Source: Rhodospirillaceae bacterium
Lineage (GTDB): Bacteria; Pseudomonadota; Alphaproteobacteria; GCA-2746255
Direction of reading: 5' to 3'
Length of the DNA stretch: 64,000 nt
Assembly (NCBI GenBank): GCA_002746255.1
Contig: NVWO01000009.1
Span: forward strand, 10,458-74,457
Shown: positions 29,100-42,532 of the stretch, one piece after another
Layout of the letters: every line of letters begins with the position of its first letter
Position numbering within the stretch: position 1 is the stretch's first letter
Made by a program: the position numbers and the translations under genes
Notes under the pieces: model-generated
The model's input: the letters and a program-made list of their open reading frames with translations, nothing else
What the model was told of the DNA's origin: nothing
Database searches by the model: none

Positions 29100-29930
29100 T
29101 TAGGCAAGGTTCTTGCGCAGCGCTGCCCGGGCGGTCGGGTGAAAATCAAAGGGGCCGGGAAAAGCGTCAATCGGCGCGGTATGGCTGACAAACCCGTCCT
29201 TGGCATCCCACATATGCAATTGAAAGCCCGGCGGCTCCAGTACATAGCCCGTCAGTTCCGTATTAAAATCAAGGTAGAGTTGATGGGCCGTGCTGGGGGA
29301 TACGCTGACAAGCGCATGTTCCCAACGGGTCTGAATGGGCCGATGCACATGACCGCAGATAACGCGTTCCACCTGGGGGTGGTCGGCAAGAAGGGCACGC
29401 AATTTGTCCCCGTTTGCACATGTCAGTGCATCCATTTCCTGCATCCGGGTAAGAAAAGGCGGATGGTGCATAAACAAAAGCGTCGGCCGGTCCGACGCCT
29501 CGTCAAGACGCGCCGCAAGCCAGTCCAGGCGTTCCTCGCAAAGGAGGCCGGCGTCATTGCCCAAGATTGTCGTGTCCAGACCAATCAGGCGCAGCGGAAG
29601 ATCCTCGATCACATAATTGAGGAACCCCGCCTCTGGCAGATACGGATAACGGGAACGCAGCACCGCGCGTAAATTGTCGCGGTTGTCGTGATTTCCGGGA
29701 ATCAGGAAGAGCGGAATTTCCATCGGCTCAAGGGTTTCGGCCAGCAACCGGTATTCATCGGGGCGCCCGCAATCAACCAAATCCCCCGTCACGATGACGG
29801 CATCGGGCCTGGGGGTCAGCGCGTTTAACCGCGCGACGGCATTTTTCAGCATCTGGATCGGGTCAAACTGAAAATGCGAAGGAATATCGGGGGAACGGAC
29901 GTGAAGATCGGTAATCTGAGCCAAAATCAT
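29100..29930 (-). CDS. Calcineurin-type phosphodiesterase (CpdA/GpdQ-like)
   Basis: A 276-residue binuclear metallophosphoesterase. Metal motifs in order are DLH (near residue 8-10), GDLVDCG, GNHDNR, a His in MHHPPF and CGHVHR. This pattern is shared by cAMP phosphodiesterase CpdA and glycerophosphodiesterase GpdQ. The closing Pro-rich C-terminus favours the GpdQ/CpdA group but does not settle the substrate. It is convergent with ccmI (28 bases apart). Confidence 0.85.
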   Translation of the reverse strand: MILAQITDLHVRSPDIPSHFQFDPIQMLKNAVARLNALTPRPDAVIVTGDLVDCGRPDEYRLLAETLEPMEIPLFLIPGNHDNRDNLRAVLRSRYPYLPEAGFLNYVIEDLPLRLIGLDTTILGNDAGLLCEERLDWLAARLDEASDRPTLLFMHHPPFLTRMQEMDALTCANGDKLRALLADHPQVERVICGHVHRPIQTRWEHALVSVSPSTAHQLYLDFNTELTGYVLEPPGFQLHMWDAKDGFVSHTAPIDAFPGPFDFHPTARAALRKNLA

Positions 29931-30301: not shown

Positions 30302-32014
30302 TCAGCCCAAAAGCCTGTAAAGCAGAACCATCACCGTCGCCAGAAGCAACAAGGCCGTGCTTTTCCAAAATCCGGCGGGGTTTTTTTCGATCCAGGGACG
30401 TTTTTTACGGGTAAGAAACGCCGTATTTGGCCGTGAAAGATCGGTGATAAAAGCCGATAGCACGTCGTAGCGTTTTTCCGGATCGCGAGCCACGGCCTTG
30501 GCGAGAGCCGCGGCCACCCATGTCGGCAAATCCAGATTGTGGCGCGTGGCGGGAACAAAGGAACGCCGCTGCGCAGAGCGCCGCGACGAAAACCCATCCC
30601 CGTAAGGCCGCTCACCTGTCAGCATTTCGTAAGCGATAACCCCCAGGGAAAAAATGTCGGTCCGGTTGGTGGATGGCTGGTCAAGCCAGCCTTCCGGGGC
30701 CGTATAGGCAAGGGTTCCAAGAACGCCGCCCGAGTTAACAGGTGAAGCAACTTCCTCAAGGCCGGTGACCTTGACGGATCCGAAGTCGATAATCTTCACC
30801 GTGCCATAAGCATCGATAAGAATATTCTCCGGCTTCAAATCCTGATGGATCATCTCCCTGCGGTGGAAGGCCCGAAGCCCCATGGCAATCTGCGCGACAA
30901 GATCACGGACTTCCATCAGGCTGGGTGTCGGGTGGTCCGTCATCCATTGGCGTAAGGTCGGCCCTTCGACATATTCGCTGATGTAATAGAGGCACTGCTT
31001 TTTCCGTTTCGGCTCGATAATTTTCAGCACATGGGGGCTCGCCAGGCGGCGGCCGACCCATTCCTCGCGCGCAAAGCGTTCAAGATAGGCTTCGTCATCC
31101 TCGAAATTGACTGACGGCGTCTTCATGACCACGCGCAAATCCGTCTCCGTATCAACTGCCAGGTAAACCTGGCTACGTTTACTGGCGTGCAATTCGCGAA
31201 GGATGCGATAGCCGTCCAGCACCATCCCCGGTTCCAGATCCGGCGGGAAGGGAAGCGCCTGAAGCTTTTGAAAATAGGCTTCGTTGTCCTCAATGCCCGT
31301 ATCGTCGACGCGAACAATCTGGCAGGTAACGTTGTCGGTGCTCCCATGCTCCAAAGCCGAAGCGACCAGCTTTCCAGCCGCCTCGTTCAAAGTTGACGCA
31401 GATGCAATTGTTGCCACGATCTCGCTGTCCGGCAAAAAATCGTGGATGCCGTCGGTGGTGAAAATGAAGACGTCACCGGCTTCCACCTCGATCTTGCGAT
31501 GGTCGATTTTAAGATCCGTATCGACCCCCATGGCACGGCTTAGATAGGTCTTGTTGCCCGCAACCTGCATCCGGTGATCCCGGGTCAGGGTTTCAAGCCC
31601 GCCCCCTCGCAAGCGGTAGATGCGCGAATCACCAATATGGAAGATGTAGGCGACGGTGCCCGGTTTTAGAATAAGCGCGCTTAGGGTGCTGACCATGCCC
31701 ATGCCGGCTGGAGCAAGCGCCATCCCCTGACTGCAAAGCCAGCGATTGACGGCAACCATCACGCGTTCCACCGAGGTCTGCACCGACCAGGATTCATGGG
31801 TGCAAAGGTAATCGGACAGCAGGCTTTTGACGCAGCTTTCGCTGGCTTCCTTGCCTGCTTCGCTGCCGCTCATGCCGTCGGCGATGGCCATGACAATGCC
31901 CTTGGTGGTGAGCAGCGGCTCATCAGGAATAAGAATTCCAAAAGAATCCTCATTCCTCTCCTTCCGTCCGGCCTCGGAATGCTGGCCAATGGTAAGCGTT
32001 GGTGTCCGTCCCAT
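30302..32014 (-). CDS. PP2C phosphatase - Ser/Thr kinase fusion of nitrate assimilation locus
   Basis: A 570-residue two-enzyme protein. The N-terminal PP2C phosphatase (about 1-240) has metal-binding acids in NEDS (22-23), ADGMSG (Asp46), TTDGI (Asp188) and STDN (Asp227). The Hanks-type kinase (about 265-530) has Lys298 (VVMK), HQDLKPEN (Asp392), DFG (410-412) and APE. A C-terminal TM helix follows (about 550-567). The glycine-rich loop is degenerate (LHASKRSQVYLA), and HRD is HQD, so activation-loop control is not expected. It follows narK by 15 bases on the same strand. Similar kinases are known beside nitrate assimilation genes in Pseudomonas. Its target is unknown. Confidence 0.92.
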   Translation of the reverse strand: MGRTPTLTIGQHSEAGRKERNEDSFGILIPDEPLLTTKGIVMAIADGMSGSEAGKEASESCVKSLLSDYLCTHESWSVQTSVERVMVAVNRWLCSQGMALAPAGMGMVSTLSALILKPGTVAYIFHIGDSRIYRLRGGGLETLTRDHRMQVAGNKTYLSRAMGVDTDLKIDHRKIEVEAGDVFIFTTDGIHDFLPDSEIVATIASASTLNEAAGKLVASALEHGSTDNVTCQIVRVDDTGIEDNEAYFQKLQALPFPPDLEPGMVLDGYRILRELHASKRSQVYLAVDTETDLRVVMKTPSVNFEDDEAYLERFAREEWVGRRLASPHVLKIIEPKRKKQCLYYISEYVEGPTLRQWMTDHPTPSLMEVRDLVAQIAMGLRAFHRREMIHQDLKPENILIDAYGTVKIIDFGSVKVTGLEEVASPVNSGGVLGTLAYTAPEGWLDQPSTNRTDIFSLGVIAYEMLTGERPYGDGFSSRRSAQRRSFVPATRHNLDLPTWVAAALAKAVARDPEKRYDVLSAFITDLSRPNTAFLTRKKRPWIEKNPAGFWKSTALLLLATVMVLLYRLLG

Positions 32015-32029
32015 AGAGCGTTACGCGCC

Positions 32030-33502
32030 TCAGCCAGCGTCGATCATCTGTACGGTGCCGTCGGGCAACACCTCCACCATATGACCCTCAGGCTCATTCA
32101 GAAACAAATAGATGCCGATCAGGACCAGCACCGCCGTCCCCGCGATAACCAGGAAAAACACGTGCGGTGAAACAAAGGACAGCACGGTCAGAAAGACCAC
32201 GGCGCCGACATTTCCATAAGCGCCCACCATGCCGGCAATCTGGCCGGTCAGGCGACGCTTGATCAGCGGAACCATGGAAAAAACAGCCCCCGCGCCAGCC
32301 TGAACAAAGAAAGAGCAGAACATGGAAACCAGGACCGCCAGCGGCACCCACCAGCCTTGGTCGATTTGCGACATCGCGAGGAAGCCAAAACCGAGACCGC
32401 CGATCAACACCATCAGAACGCGCTTGCGACCGAACCGGTCCGAAAGCATGCCGCCACCGGGCCGCGCGAAAAGATTCATGCAGGCAAAGCCCGCCGCCAA
32501 TATTCCGGCCACAATTTGCGAAAGCCCGAACGTATCCATGAAAAACAGAGGCAACATGGAAATCACCGCAAGCTCCGAACCGAACGTCACCAGATAAGCA
32601 AGGTTCAACACCGCCACCTGCTTGAAGTGATAACGGTGAATTTTTGCTACCGGCGCGGTGAAGACCTGTCGGTTGATCTGGTAGCTGCGGAAAATCTGAT
32701 AGATATAGAACGCACCAAGCACCCCATACGCCAAGGCAACGCCCAAAGGAGAGAGAAGCGCCAAATAACCGGGTCCGAGCTTCCAGGCAAGCAGGCCCGG
32801 CGCCAAATATAATGGCACCTGCATCAGCGCATGAAGGAAAAAGTCGGTCTTGTCCGACACCTCAATGGCCCCGGTTTTCTTTGGCTTGAAATAGGTTGAA
32901 CCTTTCGGCGTGTTGCGAGCCCAACGGTAATAGATTCCCGCATAAACAAGCGCGACCAACCCAGTCGCACCAACAGCGTAACGCCAGCCATCGGCACCAC
33001 CAAACATCAGCGCCACGGTGGGCAGCCCCACGGCGGCGGCAGCCGCACCAAAATTCCCCCAGCCACCATAAATGCCTTCGGCAAGACCAACCTGGCGCGC
33101 CGGGAACCATTCGCCGATGGCGCGGATACCGATAACGAATCCGGCACCCACAAACCCAAGAAGGAAACGCGTCAGGGCCAGCATTTCGAAACTGTCGGCC
33201 ACGGCGAATAGCAAACAAAGCACGCCCGAGACCGCCAGCAACGCCGTATACACAAGCCGCGGCCCGTGGCTGTCGACCAACATGCCGATGAGAATGCGCG
33301 CCGGGATGGTCAACGCCACGTTGAGAATCAAAAGCGCGCCAATTTCCTGATCGGTCAGATGCAACGTATCGCGAATGGAGGCCAGCAAGGGTGCGTGGTT
33401 AAACCAGATGACGAAGGTGATGAAAAACGCCACCCAGTTCAGGTGAAGCACGCGCATGCGCCCTTTGAACGAGAAGAGATGAAGTTTCGCAGGGGTTTCC
33501 AT
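32030..33502 (-). CDS. narK: NarK/NasA-type nitrate/nitrite transporter
   Basis: A 490-residue major facilitator protein with about 12 TM helices. The two nitrate-signature loops are present: GGWGNFGAAAAAVGLP in the first half and GAYGNVGAVVFL in the second. Arg residues expected for nitrate binding lie in TM2 (PARILIGMLVD) and TM8. The cluster with nirBD-nasA favours assimilatory nitrate uptake. The ATG at 33502 (GGAG 11 bases upstream) is preferred over a TTG at 33523. A sigma54-type promoter lies about 64-80 bases upstream. Confidence 0.92.
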   Translation of the reverse strand: METPAKLHLFSFKGRMRVLHLNWVAFFITFVIWFNHAPLLASIRDTLHLTDQEIGALLILNVALTIPARILIGMLVDSHGPRLVYTALLAVSGVLCLLFAVADSFEMLALTRFLLGFVGAGFVIGIRAIGEWFPARQVGLAEGIYGGWGNFGAAAAAVGLPTVALMFGGADGWRYAVGATGLVALVYAGIYYRWARNTPKGSTYFKPKKTGAIEVSDKTDFFLHALMQVPLYLAPGLLAWKLGPGYLALLSPLGVALAYGVLGAFYIYQIFRSYQINRQVFTAPVAKIHRYHFKQVAVLNLAYLVTFGSELAVISMLPLFFMDTFGLSQIVAGILAAGFACMNLFARPGGGMLSDRFGRKRVLMVLIGGLGFGFLAMSQIDQGWWVPLAVLVSMFCSFFVQAGAGAVFSMVPLIKRRLTGQIAGMVGAYGNVGAVVFLTVLSFVSPHVFFLVIAGTAVLVLIGIYLFLNEPEGHMVEVLPDGTVQMIDAG

Positions 33503-33565
33503 ATTTGTGTGAGGCTCCGGCAAATCAGCTGAACGGAAAAAATAAGACCTGTTGCCAGCAAAGAT

Positions 33566-33581
33566 TGCGAAAGCTGTGCCA
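33566..33581 (-). promoter_or_regulatory. Sigma54-type (-24/-12) promoter candidate for narK
   Basis: On the minus strand the sequence TGGCACAGCTTTCGCA matches the RpoN consensus TGGCAC-N5-TTGCA in 15-16 positions' layout: GG and GC are spaced by exactly 10 bases and only one base of the -12 box differs. It would place the transcript start about 50 bases before the narK ATG. RpoN/NtrC control is the known mode for nitrogen assimilation. No clear NtrC site was found. Confidence 0.55.
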
Positions 33582-33756: not shown

Positions 33757-33875
33757 CTTGGAAAACCAAGAAAATTCGCAAAATTCCGGGCAAATTCCGG
33801 GTTGGCAAGCTTCTTGCTCTCTTTCTGGTAATGGAGGGGCACGAAACAAGAAAAAAACGCGCGCGAACGGTCGGA
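33757..33875 (+). other. nirB leader region with short hairpins and a near-direct repeat
   Basis: Within the nirB 5' region are CTTGG-AAAA-CCAAG (33757-33770), GCAAG-CTT-CTTGC (33805-33817) and CGGT-CGGAA-ACCG (near 33868-33880), plus two tandem AATTCCGGG units around 33782-33801. Nitrate assimilation operons in other proteobacteria carry leader RNAs read by ANTAR proteins such as NasT. I do not see a clear hexaloop pair or terminator, so this is only suggestive. Confidence 0.3.
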
Positions 33876-33928: not shown

Positions 33929-36373
33929 ATGAAAAAACGCTTGGTCGTTATTGGCAATGGCATGGCCGGAATGCGCACCGTCGAAGAACTGCTGGCGCTG
34001 GCGCCCGACCTTTACGACATCACCGTGTTCGGCGCGGAACCCTTCGGCAATTACAACCGGATTTTGTTGTCGCCGGTGTTGGCCGGGGAAAAAACCATTG
34101 ATGAAATCATGCTCAACGATTTCAACTGGTACGACGCCAACGGAATCACTCTGAAATCCGATCGTAAAATTGTCGGCATCGACCGGCGTGTGCGCAATGT
34201 AACGGATGAGACGGGAGAGACGACCCCCTATGACCGGTTGCTGCTGGCAACCGGGTCCGATCCGGTAATACTGCCGCTGCCCGGTGCTGACCTTCCCGGG
34301 GTCGTGACCTTCCGAGACCTCCATGACGTCGACGCCATGATCCAGGCTGCCGATAAACACAAAAACGCCGTGGTAATCGGCGGCGGCCTGCTTGGCCTGG
34401 AAGCTGCAAACGGCCTGATGAAGCGGGGCATGTCGGTCACCGTGGTGCATCTCAGCACCAGTCTGATGGACCGTCAGCTAGATAAAGCCGCAAGTGAAAT
34501 GCTTCGCGCCTCCCTCAACACAAGCGGCTTGACCTTCGCCATGGAGGCCGAGACCGAGGCCATCCTGGGCGACGGCCATGTCAGCGCCGTACGCCTCAAG
34601 AACGGTCGGAAAATTGCCGCCGATCTGGTGGTCATGGCGGTCGGCATTCGACCAAATGTCAGCCTTGCCCGTAAGGCGGGCCTCTATGTGGAACGCGGGA
34701 TCGTCGTGGGTGACACCTTGCAGACCTATGACCCTGCCATCTACGCGGTTGGCGAATGCGTCCAGCACCGGGGCACCTGCTATGGCCTCGTCGCGCCCCT
34801 GTTCGAACAGGCCAAGGTCTGCGCCGTACATCTGGCAATGCTTGGCTATGCCGCCTATAGCGGCTCTCTCACCTCTACCAAGCTCAAAGTAACAGGCATT
34901 GATCTGTTCTCGGCAGGGGATTTCTCCGGCGGCGACGGCACCGAAGAAGTGGTGCTCCAGGACAAGGCGAGCAACGTTTATAAAAAACTGGTCCTCAAAG
35001 ACGGGCGCATCAAGGGTGCCGTGCTTTACGGCGACACCATTGACGGCAGCTGGTATTTCCGGCTGATGCGCGACGGCACCGATATTTCGGCCATGCGCGA
35101 CGGGCTGGTGTTCGGCCAGGCCTATCTTGGCAATTCGGAACATGGCACCAGCCAGTCGATCGTTTCCCTTCCCGACAACACCGAAATTTGCGGCTGCAAC
35201 GGCGTTTGCAAGGGTAAAATCGTCAACGCAATTACGACCAAGAAATTATTCACCCTGGACGAGGTGCGCGCCCACACCAAGGCGTCTTCTTCCTGTGGAT
35301 CTTGCACCAGCCTGGTGGAACAGCTCATCGCGTTCACCCTTGGCGGCGACTATTCCGCAACGCCCAAGGAAAAGCCCCTTTGCCCCTGCACCGAACACAG
35401 CCATGACACGGTGCGGCACGCAATCCTGGATCAGGAGCTGATGTCCATTCCCGATGTGATGGAATTCATGGAATGGCACACGCCTGACGGTTGCCAGAAA
35501 TGCCGCCCGGCGCTGAATTACTACCTGATCTGCGCCTGGCCGGATGAATATGTGGATGACAGTCAGTCGCGTTTTATCAACGAACGCGCCCACGCCAACA
35601 TCCAGAAAGACGGCACCTATTCGGTGGTGCCGCGCATGTGGGGCGGCACGACAAATTCTGCGGAATTGCGCGCCATTGCCGATGTCGCCGACAAATTCGA
35701 AATCCCGACGGTGAAAATTACCGGTGGCCAGCGCATCGACCTGCTGGGCGTGAAGAAGGAAGACCTGCCAGACGTGTGGCACGATCTGAACGCCGCCGGG
35801 ATGGTATCGGGCCACGCCTATGGCAAGTCGCTTCGGACCGTCAAAACCTGCGTCGGTTCTGAATGGTGCCGTTTCGGCACCCAGGATTCAACCGCCATGG
35901 GAATCGAACTTGAAAAAATGTGCTGGGGCAGCTGGACACCCCATAAGTTCAAGATGGCGGTGTCGGGATGCCCACGCAACTGCGCCGAAGCCACCATCAA
36001 GGATTTCGGCGTGGTGGCCGTGGAGTCGGGATGGGAACTTCATGTTGGCGGCAATGGCGGCGTCAAGATTCGCACCACCGACCTCTTGTGCCGGGTGACA
36101 ACACCCGACGAGGTGAAGGAATATTGCGGCGCCTTTATGCAGCTCTACCGCGAAGAGGCGCATTATCTGGAGCGCACCGCCCCCTGGATCGAACGGGTCG
36201 GCCTTGCCTATGTCAAATCGCATGTTGTCGAAGATGCCAAAGGCCGTCAAAGCCTCCATGCCCGTTTTCTCGCCGCCCAGGCCGCATGCCAGCACGATCC
36301 ATGGGCCAGGCGGACCGAAAAAGACGCCCCCGAACGGCGCGAATACGTACCCCTTGCGGAGCTAGGCGCATGA
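33929..36373 (+). CDS. nirB: Assimilatory nitrite reductase large subunit NirB
   Basis: An 814-residue NAD(P)H-dependent siroheme nitrite reductase subunit that reduces nitrite to ammonium. Order: FAD domain (VVIGNGMAG), NAD(P) domain (VVIGGGLLGLEAA), a BFD-like [2Fe-2S] domain (CGCNGVCKGK and SSCGSCT), then the ferredoxin-like and siroheme/[4Fe-4S] domains with the four Cys in CVGSEWCRFG and SGCPRNCAE. The ATG at 33929 is supported by GGAGAGAAGG upstream. It overlaps nirD by ATGA. Confidence 0.96.
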   Translation: MKKRLVVIGNGMAGMRTVEELLALAPDLYDITVFGAEPFGNYNRILLSPVLAGEKTIDEIMLNDFNWYDANGITLKSDRKIVGIDRRVRNVTDETGETTPYDRLLLATGSDPVILPLPGADLPGVVTFRDLHDVDAMIQAADKHKNAVVIGGGLLGLEAANGLMKRGMSVTVVHLSTSLMDRQLDKAASEMLRASLNTSGLTFAMEAETEAILGDGHVSAVRLKNGRKIAADLVVMAVGIRPNVSLARKAGLYVERGIVVGDTLQTYDPAIYAVGECVQHRGTCYGLVAPLFEQAKVCAVHLAMLGYAAYSGSLTSTKLKVTGIDLFSAGDFSGGDGTEEVVLQDKASNVYKKLVLKDGRIKGAVLYGDTIDGSWYFRLMRDGTDISAMRDGLVFGQAYLGNSEHGTSQSIVSLPDNTEICGCNGVCKGKIVNAITTKKLFTLDEVRAHTKASSSCGSCTSLVEQLIAFTLGGDYSATPKEKPLCPCTEHSHDTVRHAILDQELMSIPDVMEFMEWHTPDGCQKCRPALNYYLICAWPDEYVDDSQSRFINERAHANIQKDGTYSVVPRMWGGTTNSAELRAIADVADKFEIPTVKITGGQRIDLLGVKKEDLPDVWHDLNAAGMVSGHAYGKSLRTVKTCVGSEWCRFGTQDSTAMGIELEKMCWGSWTPHKFKMAVSGCPRNCAEATIKDFGVVAVESGWELHVGGNGGVKIRTTDLLCRVTTPDEVKEYCGAFMQLYREEAHYLERTAPWIERVGLAYVKSHVVEDAKGRQSLHARFLAAQAACQHDPWARRTEKDAPERREYVPLAELGA

Positions 36374-36711
36374 GCAATTGGGTCGCCATTGGCCATGTCA
36401 AAGACATCCCGCGCCTGGGCGCGCGGGTGGTGCGCAGGAACGGCATCGACATTGCCGTTTTCCGCGTCGCCGGGGACCAGATTTACGCGATTGAGGATCG
36501 CTGCCCACATAAGAGCGGGCCGCTGAGCCAGGGCATCGTCCATGGCGGGCGCGTGACCTGCCCACTCCACGACTGGACCATCGACCTTGCCGCCGGCAAA
36601 GCCGTCGCCCCCGATCAGGGCTGCGTCACCACCTATGCTGTGCGCATTGCCAATGACAAGATCGAAATCAACCTCGCCAAAAACGGCCAGGCCGTCACTT
36701 CCGTCCAATGA
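36370..36711 (+). CDS. nirD: Nitrite reductase small subunit NirD (Rieske type)
   Basis: A 113-residue Rieske-like [2Fe-2S] protein that partners NirB. The cluster ligands are CPHKSGPL and CPLHDW (C-x-H and C-x2-H), so this NirD retains cluster ligands that some homologues have lost. It overlaps both neighbours by 4 bases. Confidence 0.95.
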   Translation: MSNWVAIGHVKDIPRLGARVVRRNGIDIAVFRVAGDQIYAIEDRCPHKSGPLSQGIVHGGRVTCPLHDWTIDLAAGKAVAPDQGCVTTYAVRIANDKIEINLAKNGQAVTSVQ

Positions 36712-39404
36712 CAAGAGAGGTCAAGACCACGTGCCCCTATTGCGGGGTCGGCTGTGGCCTGATTGCGTCATGCGGCGTTGCGGGTGACGTTGTCATCAAA
36801 CCCGACCCTGCACATCCAGCCAATTTCGGCCGGATCTGTTCCAAGGGCGCCGCCCTGGACGAAACCCTCGACCATAAGGGCCGCCTGCTTCATCCCATGG
36901 TCGATGGGAAACGCACGAATTGGGACACCGCTCTTTTCCGCGCCGCAGAAGGCTTCACCAAAACTATCGCCAAACATGGACCGAACGCCGTGGCGTTCTA
37001 TGTATCCGGTCAACTTCTGACCGAAGATTATTACGTCGCCAACAAGCTGATGAAGGGCTTTATCGGCAGCGCAAATATCGACACCAATTCACGGCTGTGC
37101 ATGGCCTCATCGACGGCCGGACACAAGCGCGCCTTTGGCAGCGATAGCGTGCCCGGAAATTACCAGGACCTCGACGAAGCCGACCTTGTCATTTTTGCCG
37201 GTTCCAATGCCGCCTGGTGCCACCCGGTGCTTTACCAACGGATCATGGCGGCACGAGAAAAGAACCCCACCCGGCGGATGGTGATCATTGATCCCCGCCG
37301 CACCGCCACCTGCGAAGGAGCCGATCTCCACCTAGCGCTGAAGCCTGGCAGCGACACCACGCTGTTCAACGGCCTTTTGATGCATCTGGCTGCCAAGGAT
37401 CAAATTTCCAGCGGCTTCGTCGCAGACCACACCACGGGCCTCGACCCGGCCCTGGCGGTGGCCAGACTTGGCCCTGAAAGGGTTGAGGACATCGCGACCG
37501 CCTGCGGCCTTGCCACAGCGGACGTCAAAAAATTCTTTGACTGGTTTGCCAAAACCGAACGCACGGTGACCCTTTATTCCCAGGGGATCAATCAATCCTC
37601 TGCCGGAACCGACAAGGTCAATGCCATCCTCAATTGCCATCTGGTGACGGGCCGCATTGGCCGTCCCGGCATGGGGCCATTTTCCCTGACCGGCCAACCG
37701 AACGCCATGGGGGGACGCGAGGTCGGCGGCATGGCCAACCAGCTTGCCGCCCATATGAACATCGAAACCGCTTCCCATCGCAACCTGGTGCAAAAATTCT
37801 GGACCGCGCCGGTGATAGCCGACACGCCGGGGCTCAAGGCCGTGGACATGTTCCAGGCCGTTGCCGACGGCAAGATCAAGGCCATCTGGATCGTCGCAAC
37901 CAATCCGGTTGTCAGCCTGCCCGATGCCGGGCGTGTCGCCGGTGCGCTTGCCGCCTGTCCTTTGGTTGTGGTGTCCGATTGCATGGCAAAGACCGACACC
38001 ACCGCCCATGCCGATGTGTTGCTACCAGCGCTGACCTGGGGCGAAAAAAATGGAACCGTCACCAATTCCGAACGTCGCATTTCGCGCCAACGCGCCTTTC
38101 TGGATCCGCCCGGCGAAGCCAAGGCCGATTGGTGGGCCTTCTGCGAAGTTGCAAAACGCATGGGGTTTGTGACCGGCTTTCGCTATCAAGCACCGGCAGA
38201 TATTTTCCGCGAGCATGCGGCCTTGTCCGGCCACCAAAACAATGGCACGCGCAGTTTCGACATTTCCGGCCTGGCATTGCTTGACGATGCCGGGTACGAC
38301 GCCCTTGCCCCTATTCAATGGCCAGTGACGAACGCGCAGGCCAACGGTACCGCGCGCCTGTTTACGACCGGAAAATTTTTCAACCCTGATGGCCGCGCGC
38401 AATTTGTTGCCGTGCCGCCCCATAGCCCGGCCAACGCCCCCAGCCATGAACGCGATAGGGCCTATCCCCTTGTCCTGAACACGGGTCGAACCCGGGACCA
38501 TTGGCACAGCATGACGCGCAGCGGGGCCTCGCCAAAACTATCAGCCCATATGGAAGAACCGACGATCGCAATTCACCCGAACGATGCCACGGCCTACGCA
38601 TTAAAGGCGGGGAATTTTGCGCGCCTCGTCAGCCGGTGGGGTGAAATGACGGCCCGGATTGCGACCGAACCCGGCCAAATTCCCGGGCAGGTTTTCGTCC
38701 CCATTCATTGGAACAATCAATTTACCAATGCGGGCTGCGTCGCCAATCTTGTCAATCCCGTGACGGACCCGGTCTCTGGCCAGCCCGAATTAAAACACAC
38801 GCCGGTTGCTATCAAACCTGTATCAACCTCGTGGCAGGCCCTGGCGTTAACCCGGAACAGGACTCGCCCCGCCGCCGCAGATTATTGGACATGTGCGCGC
38901 GGCAACGGCTTCTGGCGTCACCACCTTGCAGGCAGGCAAACCCCGGTTGATTGGGATGCCCATGCGCGCATGCTTTTGCCCGATGCGCACAAGGACGCCG
39001 AATGGATATCTTACCGGGATGCCGCCTCGGGCATCTATCGCTATGCCTGCTTCATGGATGGGCGGCTTGAAGCCAGCCTGTTCGTAGCCGATGTCCAGGT
39101 CGAAGAAGCCTTCGACTGGATCGGGCAATTGTTTGCGGCAGAAAGCGTTACCGCGTTAGAGCGCGCAACCCTGCTTTCCGGTCAGCCACCCGCCGGCCGA
39201 AAGGATATCGGGGCCATCGTCTGCGCATGTTTTTCCATAGGCTGTAAGCAAATCGCTTCCGCCATCGCGCTTGGCGGCCTGACAAGCCTCGACGAAATTG
39301 GCGAAAGCCTTGGCGCGGGGACCAATTGCGGTTCGTGCAAACCAGAACTCAGCCGCCTCCTTGAAAAGGCGGCCACCCCTGCCACACAAGCACCACGCGC
39401 ATAA
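36708..39404 (+). CDS. nasA: Assimilatory nitrate reductase catalytic subunit
   Basis: An 898-residue molybdopterin oxidoreductase reducing nitrate to nitrite. The N-terminal [4Fe-4S] motif is CPYCGVGCG plus ICSKG. The bis-MGD region includes INQSSAGTDKVNAI and GRIGRPGMGPFSLTGQPNAMGG. The C-terminus carries a BFD-like [2Fe-2S] domain (CACFSIGC and TNCGSC), the NasA/NarB type fed electrons without a separate ferredoxin subunit. It ends 8 bases from cusA (convergent). The symbol follows the enterobacterial naming; some bacteria call it nasC. Confidence 0.95.
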   Translation: MTREVKTTCPYCGVGCGLIASCGVAGDVVIKPDPAHPANFGRICSKGAALDETLDHKGRLLHPMVDGKRTNWDTALFRAAEGFTKTIAKHGPNAVAFYVSGQLLTEDYYVANKLMKGFIGSANIDTNSRLCMASSTAGHKRAFGSDSVPGNYQDLDEADLVIFAGSNAAWCHPVLYQRIMAAREKNPTRRMVIIDPRRTATCEGADLHLALKPGSDTTLFNGLLMHLAAKDQISSGFVADHTTGLDPALAVARLGPERVEDIATACGLATADVKKFFDWFAKTERTVTLYSQGINQSSAGTDKVNAILNCHLVTGRIGRPGMGPFSLTGQPNAMGGREVGGMANQLAAHMNIETASHRNLVQKFWTAPVIADTPGLKAVDMFQAVADGKIKAIWIVATNPVVSLPDAGRVAGALAACPLVVVSDCMAKTDTTAHADVLLPALTWGEKNGTVTNSERRISRQRAFLDPPGEAKADWWAFCEVAKRMGFVTGFRYQAPADIFREHAALSGHQNNGTRSFDISGLALLDDAGYDALAPIQWPVTNAQANGTARLFTTGKFFNPDGRAQFVAVPPHSPANAPSHERDRAYPLVLNTGRTRDHWHSMTRSGASPKLSAHMEEPTIAIHPNDATAYALKAGNFARLVSRWGEMTARIATEPGQIPGQVFVPIHWNNQFTNAGCVANLVNPVTDPVSGQPELKHTPVAIKPVSTSWQALALTRNRTRPAAADYWTCARGNGFWRHHLAGRQTPVDWDAHARMLLPDAHKDAEWISYRDAASGIYRYACFMDGRLEASLFVADVQVEEAFDWIGQLFAAESVTALERATLLSGQPPAGRKDIGAIVCACFSIGCKQIASAIALGGLTSLDEIGESLGAGTNCGSCKPELSRLLEKAATPATQAPRA

Positions 39405-39412
39405 GCGTCGCA

Positions 39413-42400
39413 CTAACGCAGTCCGGCCCGTTTCCAGATCAGAAACACCGCCGGAATAACCAGCAAGGTAAGTACCGTGGCGCTCACCATGCCCCCCACC
39501 ATGGGGGCGGCAATGCGGCGCATGACTTCCGATCCGGTGCCGGACCCAAGCATGATGGGAAGCAGCCCGGCGATGGTCGCCGTCACCGTCATCAGGATCG
39601 GACGCACGCGCATCAAGGCGCCATGGACGATGGCGTGGCGCAGATCGTCCAGGGTCAACACGCGGCCCTCTTTTTCAGCGATGGCACGTTGCCCGGTCAG
39701 GGCCTGTTCCAGATAGACCATCATCAAAACGCCGATTTCGACCGACACCCCGGCAAGGGCGATAAAGCCGACGCCCACGGCCACCGAGAAATTGTAGTCA
39801 AGCAAAGCCATAAGCCACAGACCGCCAACAAGCGCCAGCGGCAACGTGCTCATGATAATCAACACCGGCGCAACGCGCCGGAAGTTCAAAAACAGAAGCA
39901 AAAGAATGATAGCAAGGGTCACCGGCACCACCACCGACAGGCGTTCTTTCGCGCGCTCCATATATTCATACTGGCCAGACCAGGTGAGCGAATAACCCGG
40001 CGGCAGAACGATGCCCGCAGCCACCGCCTTTTTAGCGTCGGCCACGTAAGAGCTGATATCACGGCCTGCAATGTCCACATAGATCCACCCGTTCAGCCGG
40101 GCGTTTTCGCTACGGATCACGCCGGGCCCGTCGGAAATGGAAATATCGGCAAGCCGCTCAAGGGGAATCTGCGCGCCCATGGGTGTGACCACCGGCAGGG
40201 TTTTCAATTTTCCCAGACTATCGCGGTAATCGCGCGGATAGCGAAGATTAATCGGATAGCGCTCCAGCCCTTCAACGCTCTGGGTAATCGTCATGCCGCC
40301 AATGGCCGTTCGCACCACGTCCTGCACATCGGCCACGTTAAGCCCAAAACGCGCCGCTTCGGCGCGGCGGATATCGATATCGATAAAGCGTCCTCCGGTG
40401 ACCCGCTCCGCATAGACGGACGCCGTGCCGGGAACGGTTTTGATGACATTTTCAATGGCCTCGCCGATCGCACCGATGCCCTTTAAATCGGGGCCGGCCA
40501 CCTTGATGCCAACGGGCGTCTTGATACCGGTGGCCAGCATGTCGATGCGATTTTTAATCGGCATGATCCACACATTTGTCAGGCTTGGCACCTGCACGAT
40601 GCGATCGAGTTCCTTCTTCAGCTTTTCCATGGTCATGCCGGGCCGCCACTGATCGTGCGGATGCAGGCGGATGGTCGTTTCCACCATGGTCAGCGGCGCC
40701 GGGTCGGTTGCGGTGTCGGCGCGTCCGGCCTTGGCATAGGCGCTTTTTACCTCTGGCACGGTCATAATCAGCTTGTTGGTCTGCTGAATGATTTGCGCCA
40801 TTTTGCCCGCCGAGGCTGCGGGAAAGGCGCTCGGCATATAAAGAAGATCCCCTTCATCGAGATCCGGCATGAACTCGCCGCCCACACGCGACAACGGCAC
40901 CATTGCACTTGCCAGCACAAGGCCTGCGACAAGCAACATCCGGACAGGGTGTTTCAACACCAGGCCGATAAAGGGCCGATAGAGGGTGATCAGCATCCGG
41001 TTGATCGGATTTTTCTGTTCCGCCAACACGCGCCCGCGAATGAAATAGCCCATCAGCACCGGCACCAGCGTAACGGCAAGTCCCGCCGCCGCCGCCATGG
41101 CGTAGGTTTTGGTATAGGCGAGGGGATGAAATAGGCGGCCTTCCTGGGCCTCCAGAGCAAAAATCGGCACAAAGCTGAACGCGATAATCAGCAGCGAGAA
41201 AAAGACCGCCGGCCCCACTTCCGTGGCCGCATCGGCAACGAGACGCCAGCGGTTTTCTTTTGTCAGCCCCGTGCGCTCAATATGTTTGTGCATGTTTTCA
41301 ATCATCACGATGGCCGCATCGACCATGGCACCAATGGCAATGGCAATGCCGCCCAATGACATAATATTGGCGTTGATGCCCTGCAGGTTCATCACGATAA
41401 AGGCGATGAGCACGCCCAGGGGCAGGCTAAGCACAACGACCAGGGCCGAACGCAGGTGAAAAAGAAAGATGGCGCAGACCAGAATGACGACGATGAATTC
41501 TTCGGTAAGCTTTTCGCGCAACGTATCGACGGCGCGTTCAATCAGCGACGAGCGGTCATAGGTCGTAACCAGTTCCACCCCTTCGGGCAGACTTTTTTCC
41601 AAGGACGTCAGCTTTTTCTTCACGCGTTCAATGACGCGAAGGGCATTTTCGCCAAAACGCATGATGATGATACCGCCAACGGCCTCGCCCTCGCCATTCA
41701 GTTCGCCAATGCCACGGCGCAATTCCGGTCCGATGCGAATCTGCGCCACGTCCCTAAGAAGCACCGGCGTGCCGTCTTTGGTGACTTTCAGCGGAATCTG
41801 GCGCAAATCTGCCTCTGATTTGATGTAGCCACTGGCGCGCACCATGTATTCGGCCTCGGCCATTTCAATGATGCGCCCGCCGCTTTCCTGATTGCCGCGC
41901 GCGATGGCGGTGCGCACTTTCGAAAGCGGAATTTCAAAACTTCGCAACTTGTCCGGATCGACAACAACCTGGTACTGGCGAACCATGCCACCAATGCTGG
42001 CAACCTCGGAAACCCCCGGCACGGTCTGCAATTCATATTTCAGAAACCAGTCCTGAAGAGAGCGCAATTGCGCCAGGTCATGTTTTCCGGTGCGATCGAT
42101 CAACGCGTATTGATAGACCCAGCCGACACCCGTGGCATCCGGCCCCAGGGCCGGTTTGGCCCCATCCGGCAGGGTCGGTGCAACCTGCGAGAGATATTCG
42201 AGCACGCGCGAACGCGCCCAATAGAGGTCCGTGCCGTCTTTGAAAATAATGTAGACAAAACTGTCATTAAAGAAAGAATAGCCGCGCACCGTGACTGCGC
42301 CCGGCACCGCCAGCATGGCGGTTGTCAGAGGATAGGTCACCTGATCCTCGACCACTTGGGGCGCCTGACCCGGATAAGAGGTCTTGATAATCACCTGCAC

Positions 42401-42532
42401 GTCGGAAAGGTCCGGAATGGCATCAAGGGGCGTATTTTTCAACGCATAGGCCCCCCAGCCCGCCAGCAACAAAGCCAGCATGACGACCAGAAAACGGTTG
42501 CCGATGGACCAGCGGATGAGCGCGACAATCAT
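39413..42532 (-). CDS. cusA: Cu(I)/Ag(I) efflux RND pump CusA
   Basis: A 1039-residue heavy-metal RND proton antiporter spanning the inner membrane and periplasm. It closely follows CusA: the periplasmic methionines are conserved in LLYMPSAFP, APLTMVETT and NRIDMLATG, matching the Met triad that selects Cu(I)/Ag(I). Signature VGFIALAGVSVEIGVLMMVYL lies in the TM domain. It overlaps cusB by 4 bases. Order on the minus strand is cusC-cusB-cusA. Confidence 0.95.
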   Translation of the reverse strand: MIVALIRWSIGNRFLVVMLALLLAGWGAYALKNTPLDAIPDLSDVQVIIKTSYPGQAPQVVEDQVTYPLTTAMLAVPGAVTVRGYSFFNDSFVYIIFKDGTDLYWARSRVLEYLSQVAPTLPDGAKPALGPDATGVGWVYQYALIDRTGKHDLAQLRSLQDWFLKYELQTVPGVSEVASIGGMVRQYQVVVDPDKLRSFEIPLSKVRTAIARGNQESGGRIIEMAEAEYMVRASGYIKSEADLRQIPLKVTKDGTPVLLRDVAQIRIGPELRRGIGELNGEGEAVGGIIIMRFGENALRVIERVKKKLTSLEKSLPEGVELVTTYDRSSLIERAVDTLREKLTEEFIVVILVCAIFLFHLRSALVVVLSLPLGVLIAFIVMNLQGINANIMSLGGIAIAIGAMVDAAIVMIENMHKHIERTGLTKENRWRLVADAATEVGPAVFFSLLIIAFSFVPIFALEAQEGRLFHPLAYTKTYAMAAAAGLAVTLVPVLMGYFIRGRVLAEQKNPINRMLITLYRPFIGLVLKHPVRMLLVAGLVLASAMVPLSRVGGEFMPDLDEGDLLYMPSAFPAASAGKMAQIIQQTNKLIMTVPEVKSAYAKAGRADTATDPAPLTMVETTIRLHPHDQWRPGMTMEKLKKELDRIVQVPSLTNVWIMPIKNRIDMLATGIKTPVGIKVAGPDLKGIGAIGEAIENVIKTVPGTASVYAERVTGGRFIDIDIRRAEAARFGLNVADVQDVVRTAIGGMTITQSVEGLERYPINLRYPRDYRDSLGKLKTLPVVTPMGAQIPLERLADISISDGPGVIRSENARLNGWIYVDIAGRDISSYVADAKKAVAAGIVLPPGYSLTWSGQYEYMERAKERLSVVVPVTLAIILLLLFLNFRRVAPVLIIMSTLPLALVGGLWLMALLDYNFSVAVGVGFIALAGVSVEIGVLMMVYLEQALTGQRAIAEKEGRVLTLDDLRHAIVHGALMRVRPILMTVTATIAGLLPIMLGSGTGSEVMRRIAAPMVGGMVSATVLTLLVIPAVFLIWKRAGLR

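Follow-up and report, generated by a model that had tools for sequence, protein, structure and literature searches.

A membrane-anchored protein phosphatase/kinase encoded beside nitrogen-compound transporters, and its possible role in nitrate uptake

The narK-kinase locus

The window considered here is a stretch of 64,000 nucleotides from a Rhodospirillaceae bacterium (contig NVWO01000009.1, positions 10,458 to 74,457). On its reverse strand, at 30302..32014, lies an intact open reading frame of 570 amino acids encoding a bifunctional PP2C phosphatase/Ser-Thr kinase, named after the RefSeq annotation of plasmid homologues. As an earlier note on this DNA had remarked, the gene adjoins a nitrate transporter: the stop codon of narK (32030-32032) and the ATG of the kinase gene (32014) are 15 nt apart. 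The transporter belongs to the NarK nitrate/nitrite family in its 14-helix long form (32030..33523, reverse strand, likely ATG at 33502; TIGR00886, 2.5e-91, and AF2 model). The kinase gene is followed after 371 nt, in the same orientation, by a gene for a calcineurin-like phosphoesterase (29100-29930).

Divergent from narK-kinase are nirB, for the nitrite reductase large subunit (33929..36373 within a listed ORF from 33710; TIGR02374, 3.7e-283), nirD, for the Rieske-type small subunit (36364..36711), and a gene for a NasC-like assimilatory nitrate reductase catalytic subunit with a C-terminal BFD-type [2Fe-2S] domain (36708..39404, by profile matches), all on the forward strand. An AcrB/CusA-type RND efflux pump (39413-42532) directly follows this nitrate cluster.

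Motif scanning and locus comparison predict a sigma54-type -24/-12 promoter with one mismatch upstream of narK-kinase (33566..33581, reverse strand) and another, likewise with one mismatch, upstream of nirB (33803..33818, forward strand). Since matches with two mismatches occur at chance level across the whole window, the promoter claim rests on this correctly oriented one-mismatch pair and on the comparison between loci. A sigma54-type site lies within 350 bp of 47 of 60 related narK genes, compared with 1.3% of shuffled sequences; it also precedes 35/44 nirB genes and 15/30 FNT genes (some of these loci being counted twice), and is found in the kinase's own upstream region in 5/78 cases. The genome encodes two sigma54 activators. 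Matches to the NtrC-type site TGCAC-N5-GGTGCA are no more frequent in the window than expected by chance, with none in the narK-nirB intergenic region, and no Rfam match was found near the narK-kinase operon.

Domain architecture and known relatives

The N-terminal part of the protein is a PP2C (PPM) phosphatase domain (residues 8-235; 31310..31993, reverse strand), which matches Pfam PP2C_2 over residues 18-198 (4.8e-12) and retrieves PppA (6jkv) and tPphA (2j82) with Foldseek. It is followed by a Hanks-type kinase domain (residues 268-528; 30431..31213, reverse strand) that is supported by the AF2 model, by Foldseek and HMMER matches to S. aureus Stk1 and M. tuberculosis PknB, and by the Pfam protein kinase profile (residues 279-516, 4.5e-39; 134.9 bits against a cut-off of 31.7). 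One hydrophobic stretch, at about 547-570, is modelled by AF2 as a single helix (residues 546-569; 30308..30379, reverse strand) and is preceded by a conserved P-x-x-E-[RK]-[ND]-P-x-x-F-W segment. Built with 45 homologues, the AF2 model is of high confidence, with a mean pLDDT of 88.6; neither the model nor Pfam reveals any sensor domain. The presence of opposing enzymes and a C-terminal membrane anchor on one chain, already read from the sequence in the earlier note, is thus borne out, and the protein probably can both add phosphate to proteins and remove it while anchored to the membrane. It is the only protein kinase above the Pfam threshold in its 2.1-Mb genome.

By its PP2C-kinase-TM architecture and full-length similarity, the protein belongs to the RefSeq family of bifunctional protein-serine/threonine kinases/phosphatases (PA1782-type), which has the same domain order and whose plasmid-borne members so named share 38-49% identity with it over 96-97% of its length. 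The RefSeq annotation gives neither a partner nor a function. PA1782 of P. aeruginosa presumably lies beside nasA and nirB. It is a predicted Ser/Thr kinase (PMC8560001), and those of its mentions in the open-access literature that were consulted do not deal with its function; nor did that literature yield a functional paper on the bifunctional family or on a role in switching transporters. While the family is thus already named, the clade A loop, the HQD motif and the pairing with long NarK are described here.

The closest solved kinase domains are those of the PASTA kinases (PknB/Stk1/StkP), at about 25-30% identity, but the protein scores only 181.9 bits with the PASTA kinase profile NF033483, whose cut-off is 450. 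Unlike these kinases, it has neither the glycine loop nor the HRD Arg, and its phosphatase is part of the same chain, whereas a separate gene encodes it in PASTA systems. PppA (of T6SS) and cyanobacterial tPphA share the PP2C fold at 28-29% identity but are stand-alone phosphatases, and the window protein has a Lys at the motif I Arg position.

Catalytic motifs

The kinase lacks GxGxxG. In its place is the loop ELHASKRSQVY, of which HASKRSQVY (residues 276-284; 31163..31189, reverse strand) conforms to the consensus HASxR(T/S)QVYLA of the clade; Arg280 is present in 80 of 81 homologues, and AF2 models a normal beta1-beta2 hairpin here with good confidence. The loop of the FNT-linked clade is likewise glycine-poor. 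The catalytic motif reads HQD (residues 390-392; 30839..30847, reverse strand) in 81/81 homologues, Gln replacing the Arg before the catalytic Asp that marks RD kinases. In the broader set, this residue is Gln in 89/93 kinases beside long NarK and in 20/24 beside FNT, and HRD is mostly kept in kinases adjoining short NarK or eutBC. Lys298 (VAIK), alpha-C Glu317, Asp392, Asn397 and Asp410, the latter in the DFG motif (residues 410-412; 30779..30787, reverse strand), are each found in all 81 homologues. The same holds for Asp23 and the metal ligands Asp46, Asp188 and Asp227 of the PP2C half, and for Lys18, which occupies the phosphate-binding Arg position of motif I, an Arg called invariant in PP2C/PPM phosphatases (PMC1821046).

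The earlier note was therefore right that Lys, the catalytic Asp and DFG are kept and that GxGxxG and the HRD Arg are absent, but the words "lost" and "degenerate" do not fit: since the HQD motif and the Arg280 loop are near-invariant in 81 homologues, they represent a family signature and not decay in this genome. The missing glycine loop and the replacement of the HRD Arg by Gln could still suggest that the kinase half is a pseudokinase or a nucleotide-binding regulator, only the PP2C half being active, or that the whole protein is a scaffold. However, the residues whose loss would make a pseudokinase (Lys, catalytic Asp, DFG Asp) are all present, Lys298, Asp392, Asn397 and Asp410 do not vary, the hairpin is well formed in the model and deeper clades keep HRD. 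The invariant catalytic residues rule out decay or a pseudokinase as the main reading, and we consider this whole group of explanations very unlikely. A kinase without a glycine loop may nevertheless be weak or specialised.

Association with transporters across genomes

Upstream sequence of 500 nt or more is available for 74 related loci, and in 69 of them narK immediately precedes the kinase gene in the same orientation, with a median gap of 65 nt. The kinase occurs in 94 of 274 gammaproteobacterial genomes, NarK in 118 and both in 88; NarK is thus found in 88/94 genomes with the kinase versus 30/180 of the others (odds ratio 73, Fisher p=1e-37), and the pairing with nitrate genes on which the earlier note had staked its proposal is clearly recovered. 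In all six NarK-less kinase genomes (G331, G412, G432, G434, G447 and G533), an FNT gene is located upstream of the kinase (loci L142-L146 and L148). Two apparent exceptions proved on inspection to be a kinase gene truncated by a contig end (G416) and a single kinase gene flanked by two NarKs (G538). One candidate member (G005/L084) was rejected, its match being an ordinary kinase. In Alphaproteobacteria the family is rarer (13/289). No transporter was found beside seven kinase copies (L009, L066, L072, L147, L149, L150, L155); the copy in L147 (8060-12520) adjoins a PAS-GGDEF-EAL protein. In locus L169 (4074-8891), one kinase gene sits between two long NarK genes.

The clades of the kinase match the type of transporter: a tree of 139 rows needs four label changes, and four labels cannot be placed with fewer than three. 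This is a quick LG+G4 tree in which several long branches were flagged. Its de-duplicated set comprises 93 kinases with long NarK, 24 with FNT and 4 with short NarK, while the broader locus counts include some stretches twice. Clade 1 follows the 14-helix NarK, clade 2 an FNT formate/nitrite transporter (Pfam PF01226, confirmed on one representative, L134), and clade 3 either follows a short NarK or adjoins eutBC. A 34%-identical version of the kinase next to a short NarK exists in the window's own genus (G001); in its loci L083/L128, the different kinase clade and different NarK type stand beside a similar nirBD-nasC, as if swapped together. One contig (L143, G331) has two kinase/phosphatase genes of different clades.

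FNT-kinase pairs without annotated nitrate genes within 7 kb are carried by plasmids of Azospirillum, Methylobacterium, Cupriavidus, Acinetobacter and Psychrobacter, and no conserved third gene accompanies the pairs on these plasmids. An Ideonella plasmid with an FNT-kinase pair also carries nirBD. On the Acinetobacter and Psychrobacter plasmids (L161, 5410-8725; L164, 4867-7947), the pair lies by the cyanase gene cynS and a type I restriction system, which suggests a mobile cyanate/nitrite module; no paper on the FNT-kinase pair, or on cyanase with such a pair, was found in the open-access literature. In two further loci (L152, 3342-8778; L151, 7089-11154), family members are directly adjacent to the ethanolamine ammonia-lyase genes eutB/eutC, and an upstream permease of amino-acid/ethanolamine type was identified in one of them, L152.

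The link to nitrate genes is therefore conserved, but "nitrate locus" describes it imprecisely: the association is with the transporter and extends to FNT plasmids and ethanolamine genes. One might instead suppose that the target is the machinery of nitrate/nitrite reduction (NirB, NasC), with the transporter a mere neighbour since all are nitrogen genes. Indeed, nirB is present in 34/43 and nasC in 31/43 long loci, and NirB accompanies the kinase in 88/94 genomes. However, the kinase diverges in step with NarK and not with NirB. Where all three genes are present (36 loci), the correlation of kinase distances is r=0.81 with those of NarK and 0.63 with those of NirB; the partial correlation with NarK given NirB is 0.67, and with NirB given NarK only 0.13. 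As the pair also exists without reductase genes (plasmid FNT-kinase pairs with no nirB in view, linkage to eutBC), control of reduction is quite unlikely in our view. Where the earlier note had offered transport and reductase control side by side, nitrate transport is now favoured.

A candidate site in NarK

The AF2 model of the window's NarK has two extra helices (225-249 and 259-283) that follow a flexible loop of low model confidence (residues 202-224; 32852..32920, reverse strand). Six membrane helices precede this loop, which by the usual MFS topology would make it cytosolic. It contains TPKGSTY (205-211), a candidate phosphorylation site. All of the 100 kinase-linked long NarKs have TPxGSTY, as do four others that adjoin a kinase (L165, L169, L171, L172). 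It is absent from four of five unlinked NarKs (L135, L166, L168, L173) and kept in L167, in counts that ignore phylogeny and with three of the five sharing just 43-45% identity with the window's NarK. The loop is identical in kinase-linked L171 and L172 (52-53% overall identity) and only 38% kept in unlinked L173 (50% overall identity). Because the unlinked set is small, three of its members are distant and L167 retains the motif, shared ancestry may explain part of this pattern.

The transporter might also act as the sensor, a transporting NarK or FNT controlling the enzyme by membrane contact and the signal passing on to a different protein of the cytosol, for instance a nitrogen regulator or a reductase. 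Such an arrangement would explain why the enzyme pairs with transporters of two unrelated folds, why it is anchored in the membrane and why it has no sensor domain. The Foldseek resemblance of the PP2C domain to tPphA, which has a known role with PII, points the same way. The plasmid pairs without a conserved third gene speak against it, however, and the loop motif of kinase-linked NarKs is no less compatible with NarK being a substrate, so that we regard the sensor model as unlikely, if less so than control of the reductases.

Proposed direct control of the neighbouring transporter

What stays constant across the clades is only that a transporter of nitrogen compounds, replaced by ethanolamine genes in part of the small third clade, adjoins a membrane-tied enzyme that plausibly acts as both kinase and phosphatase. 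The simplest model is direct control of the transporter. We propose that a nitrogen-regulated, membrane-anchored kinase/phosphatase toggles the neighbouring transporter by phosphorylation, and judge this proposal, derived from sequence comparison, to be about evenly poised. The kinase copies with no transporter beside them, and the permease identified in just one of the two eutBC loci, speak against it. Nitrogen limitation would be the signal, driving the narK-kinase operon through the sigma54/NtrC-type promoter. The C-terminal helix would hold the enzyme at the inner membrane beside NarK, where the kinase would phosphorylate, and the PP2C half dephosphorylate, the loop after helix 6 (TPKGSTY, Thr205/Ser209/Thr210), setting nitrate uptake, with phosphate acting either to open or to close the transporter. 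The glycine-free loop with Arg280, together with HQD, may constitute a family-specific nucleotide site independent of activation-loop phosphorylation. Related clades would act likewise on FNT nitrite-type channels, on short NarK and possibly on ethanolamine uptake.

PP2C phosphatases are involved in the control of the plant nitrate transporter NRT1.1. This transporter is switched by phosphorylation at Thr101 (PMC7348705). The likeness of the NRT1.1/CIPK/PP2C system to the window pair is an analogy only, the former being eukaryotic and made of separate proteins acting on an unrelated transporter family.

How bacteria adjust nitrate uptake rapidly at the post-translational level is not well understood. 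If the proposed model is true, it would provide a concrete switch for this uptake, one that unites kinase and opposing phosphatase in a single anchored chain and has a named candidate site. Of the gammaproteobacterial genomes sampled, roughly one in three (94/274) has the family, its gene usually following directly after that of a transporter. It may thus represent widespread, unrecognised kinase-phosphatase cassettes dedicated to transporters, mostly with a glycine-free loop, whose clades would correspond to nitrogen-compound transporters with unrelated folds (NarK in its 14-helix and short forms, FNT, and perhaps ethanolamine uptake) and toggle them post-translationally, a generalisation to which we give slightly less than an even chance. 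One regulator family serving unrelated transporter folds would then be a general design for the control of uptake.
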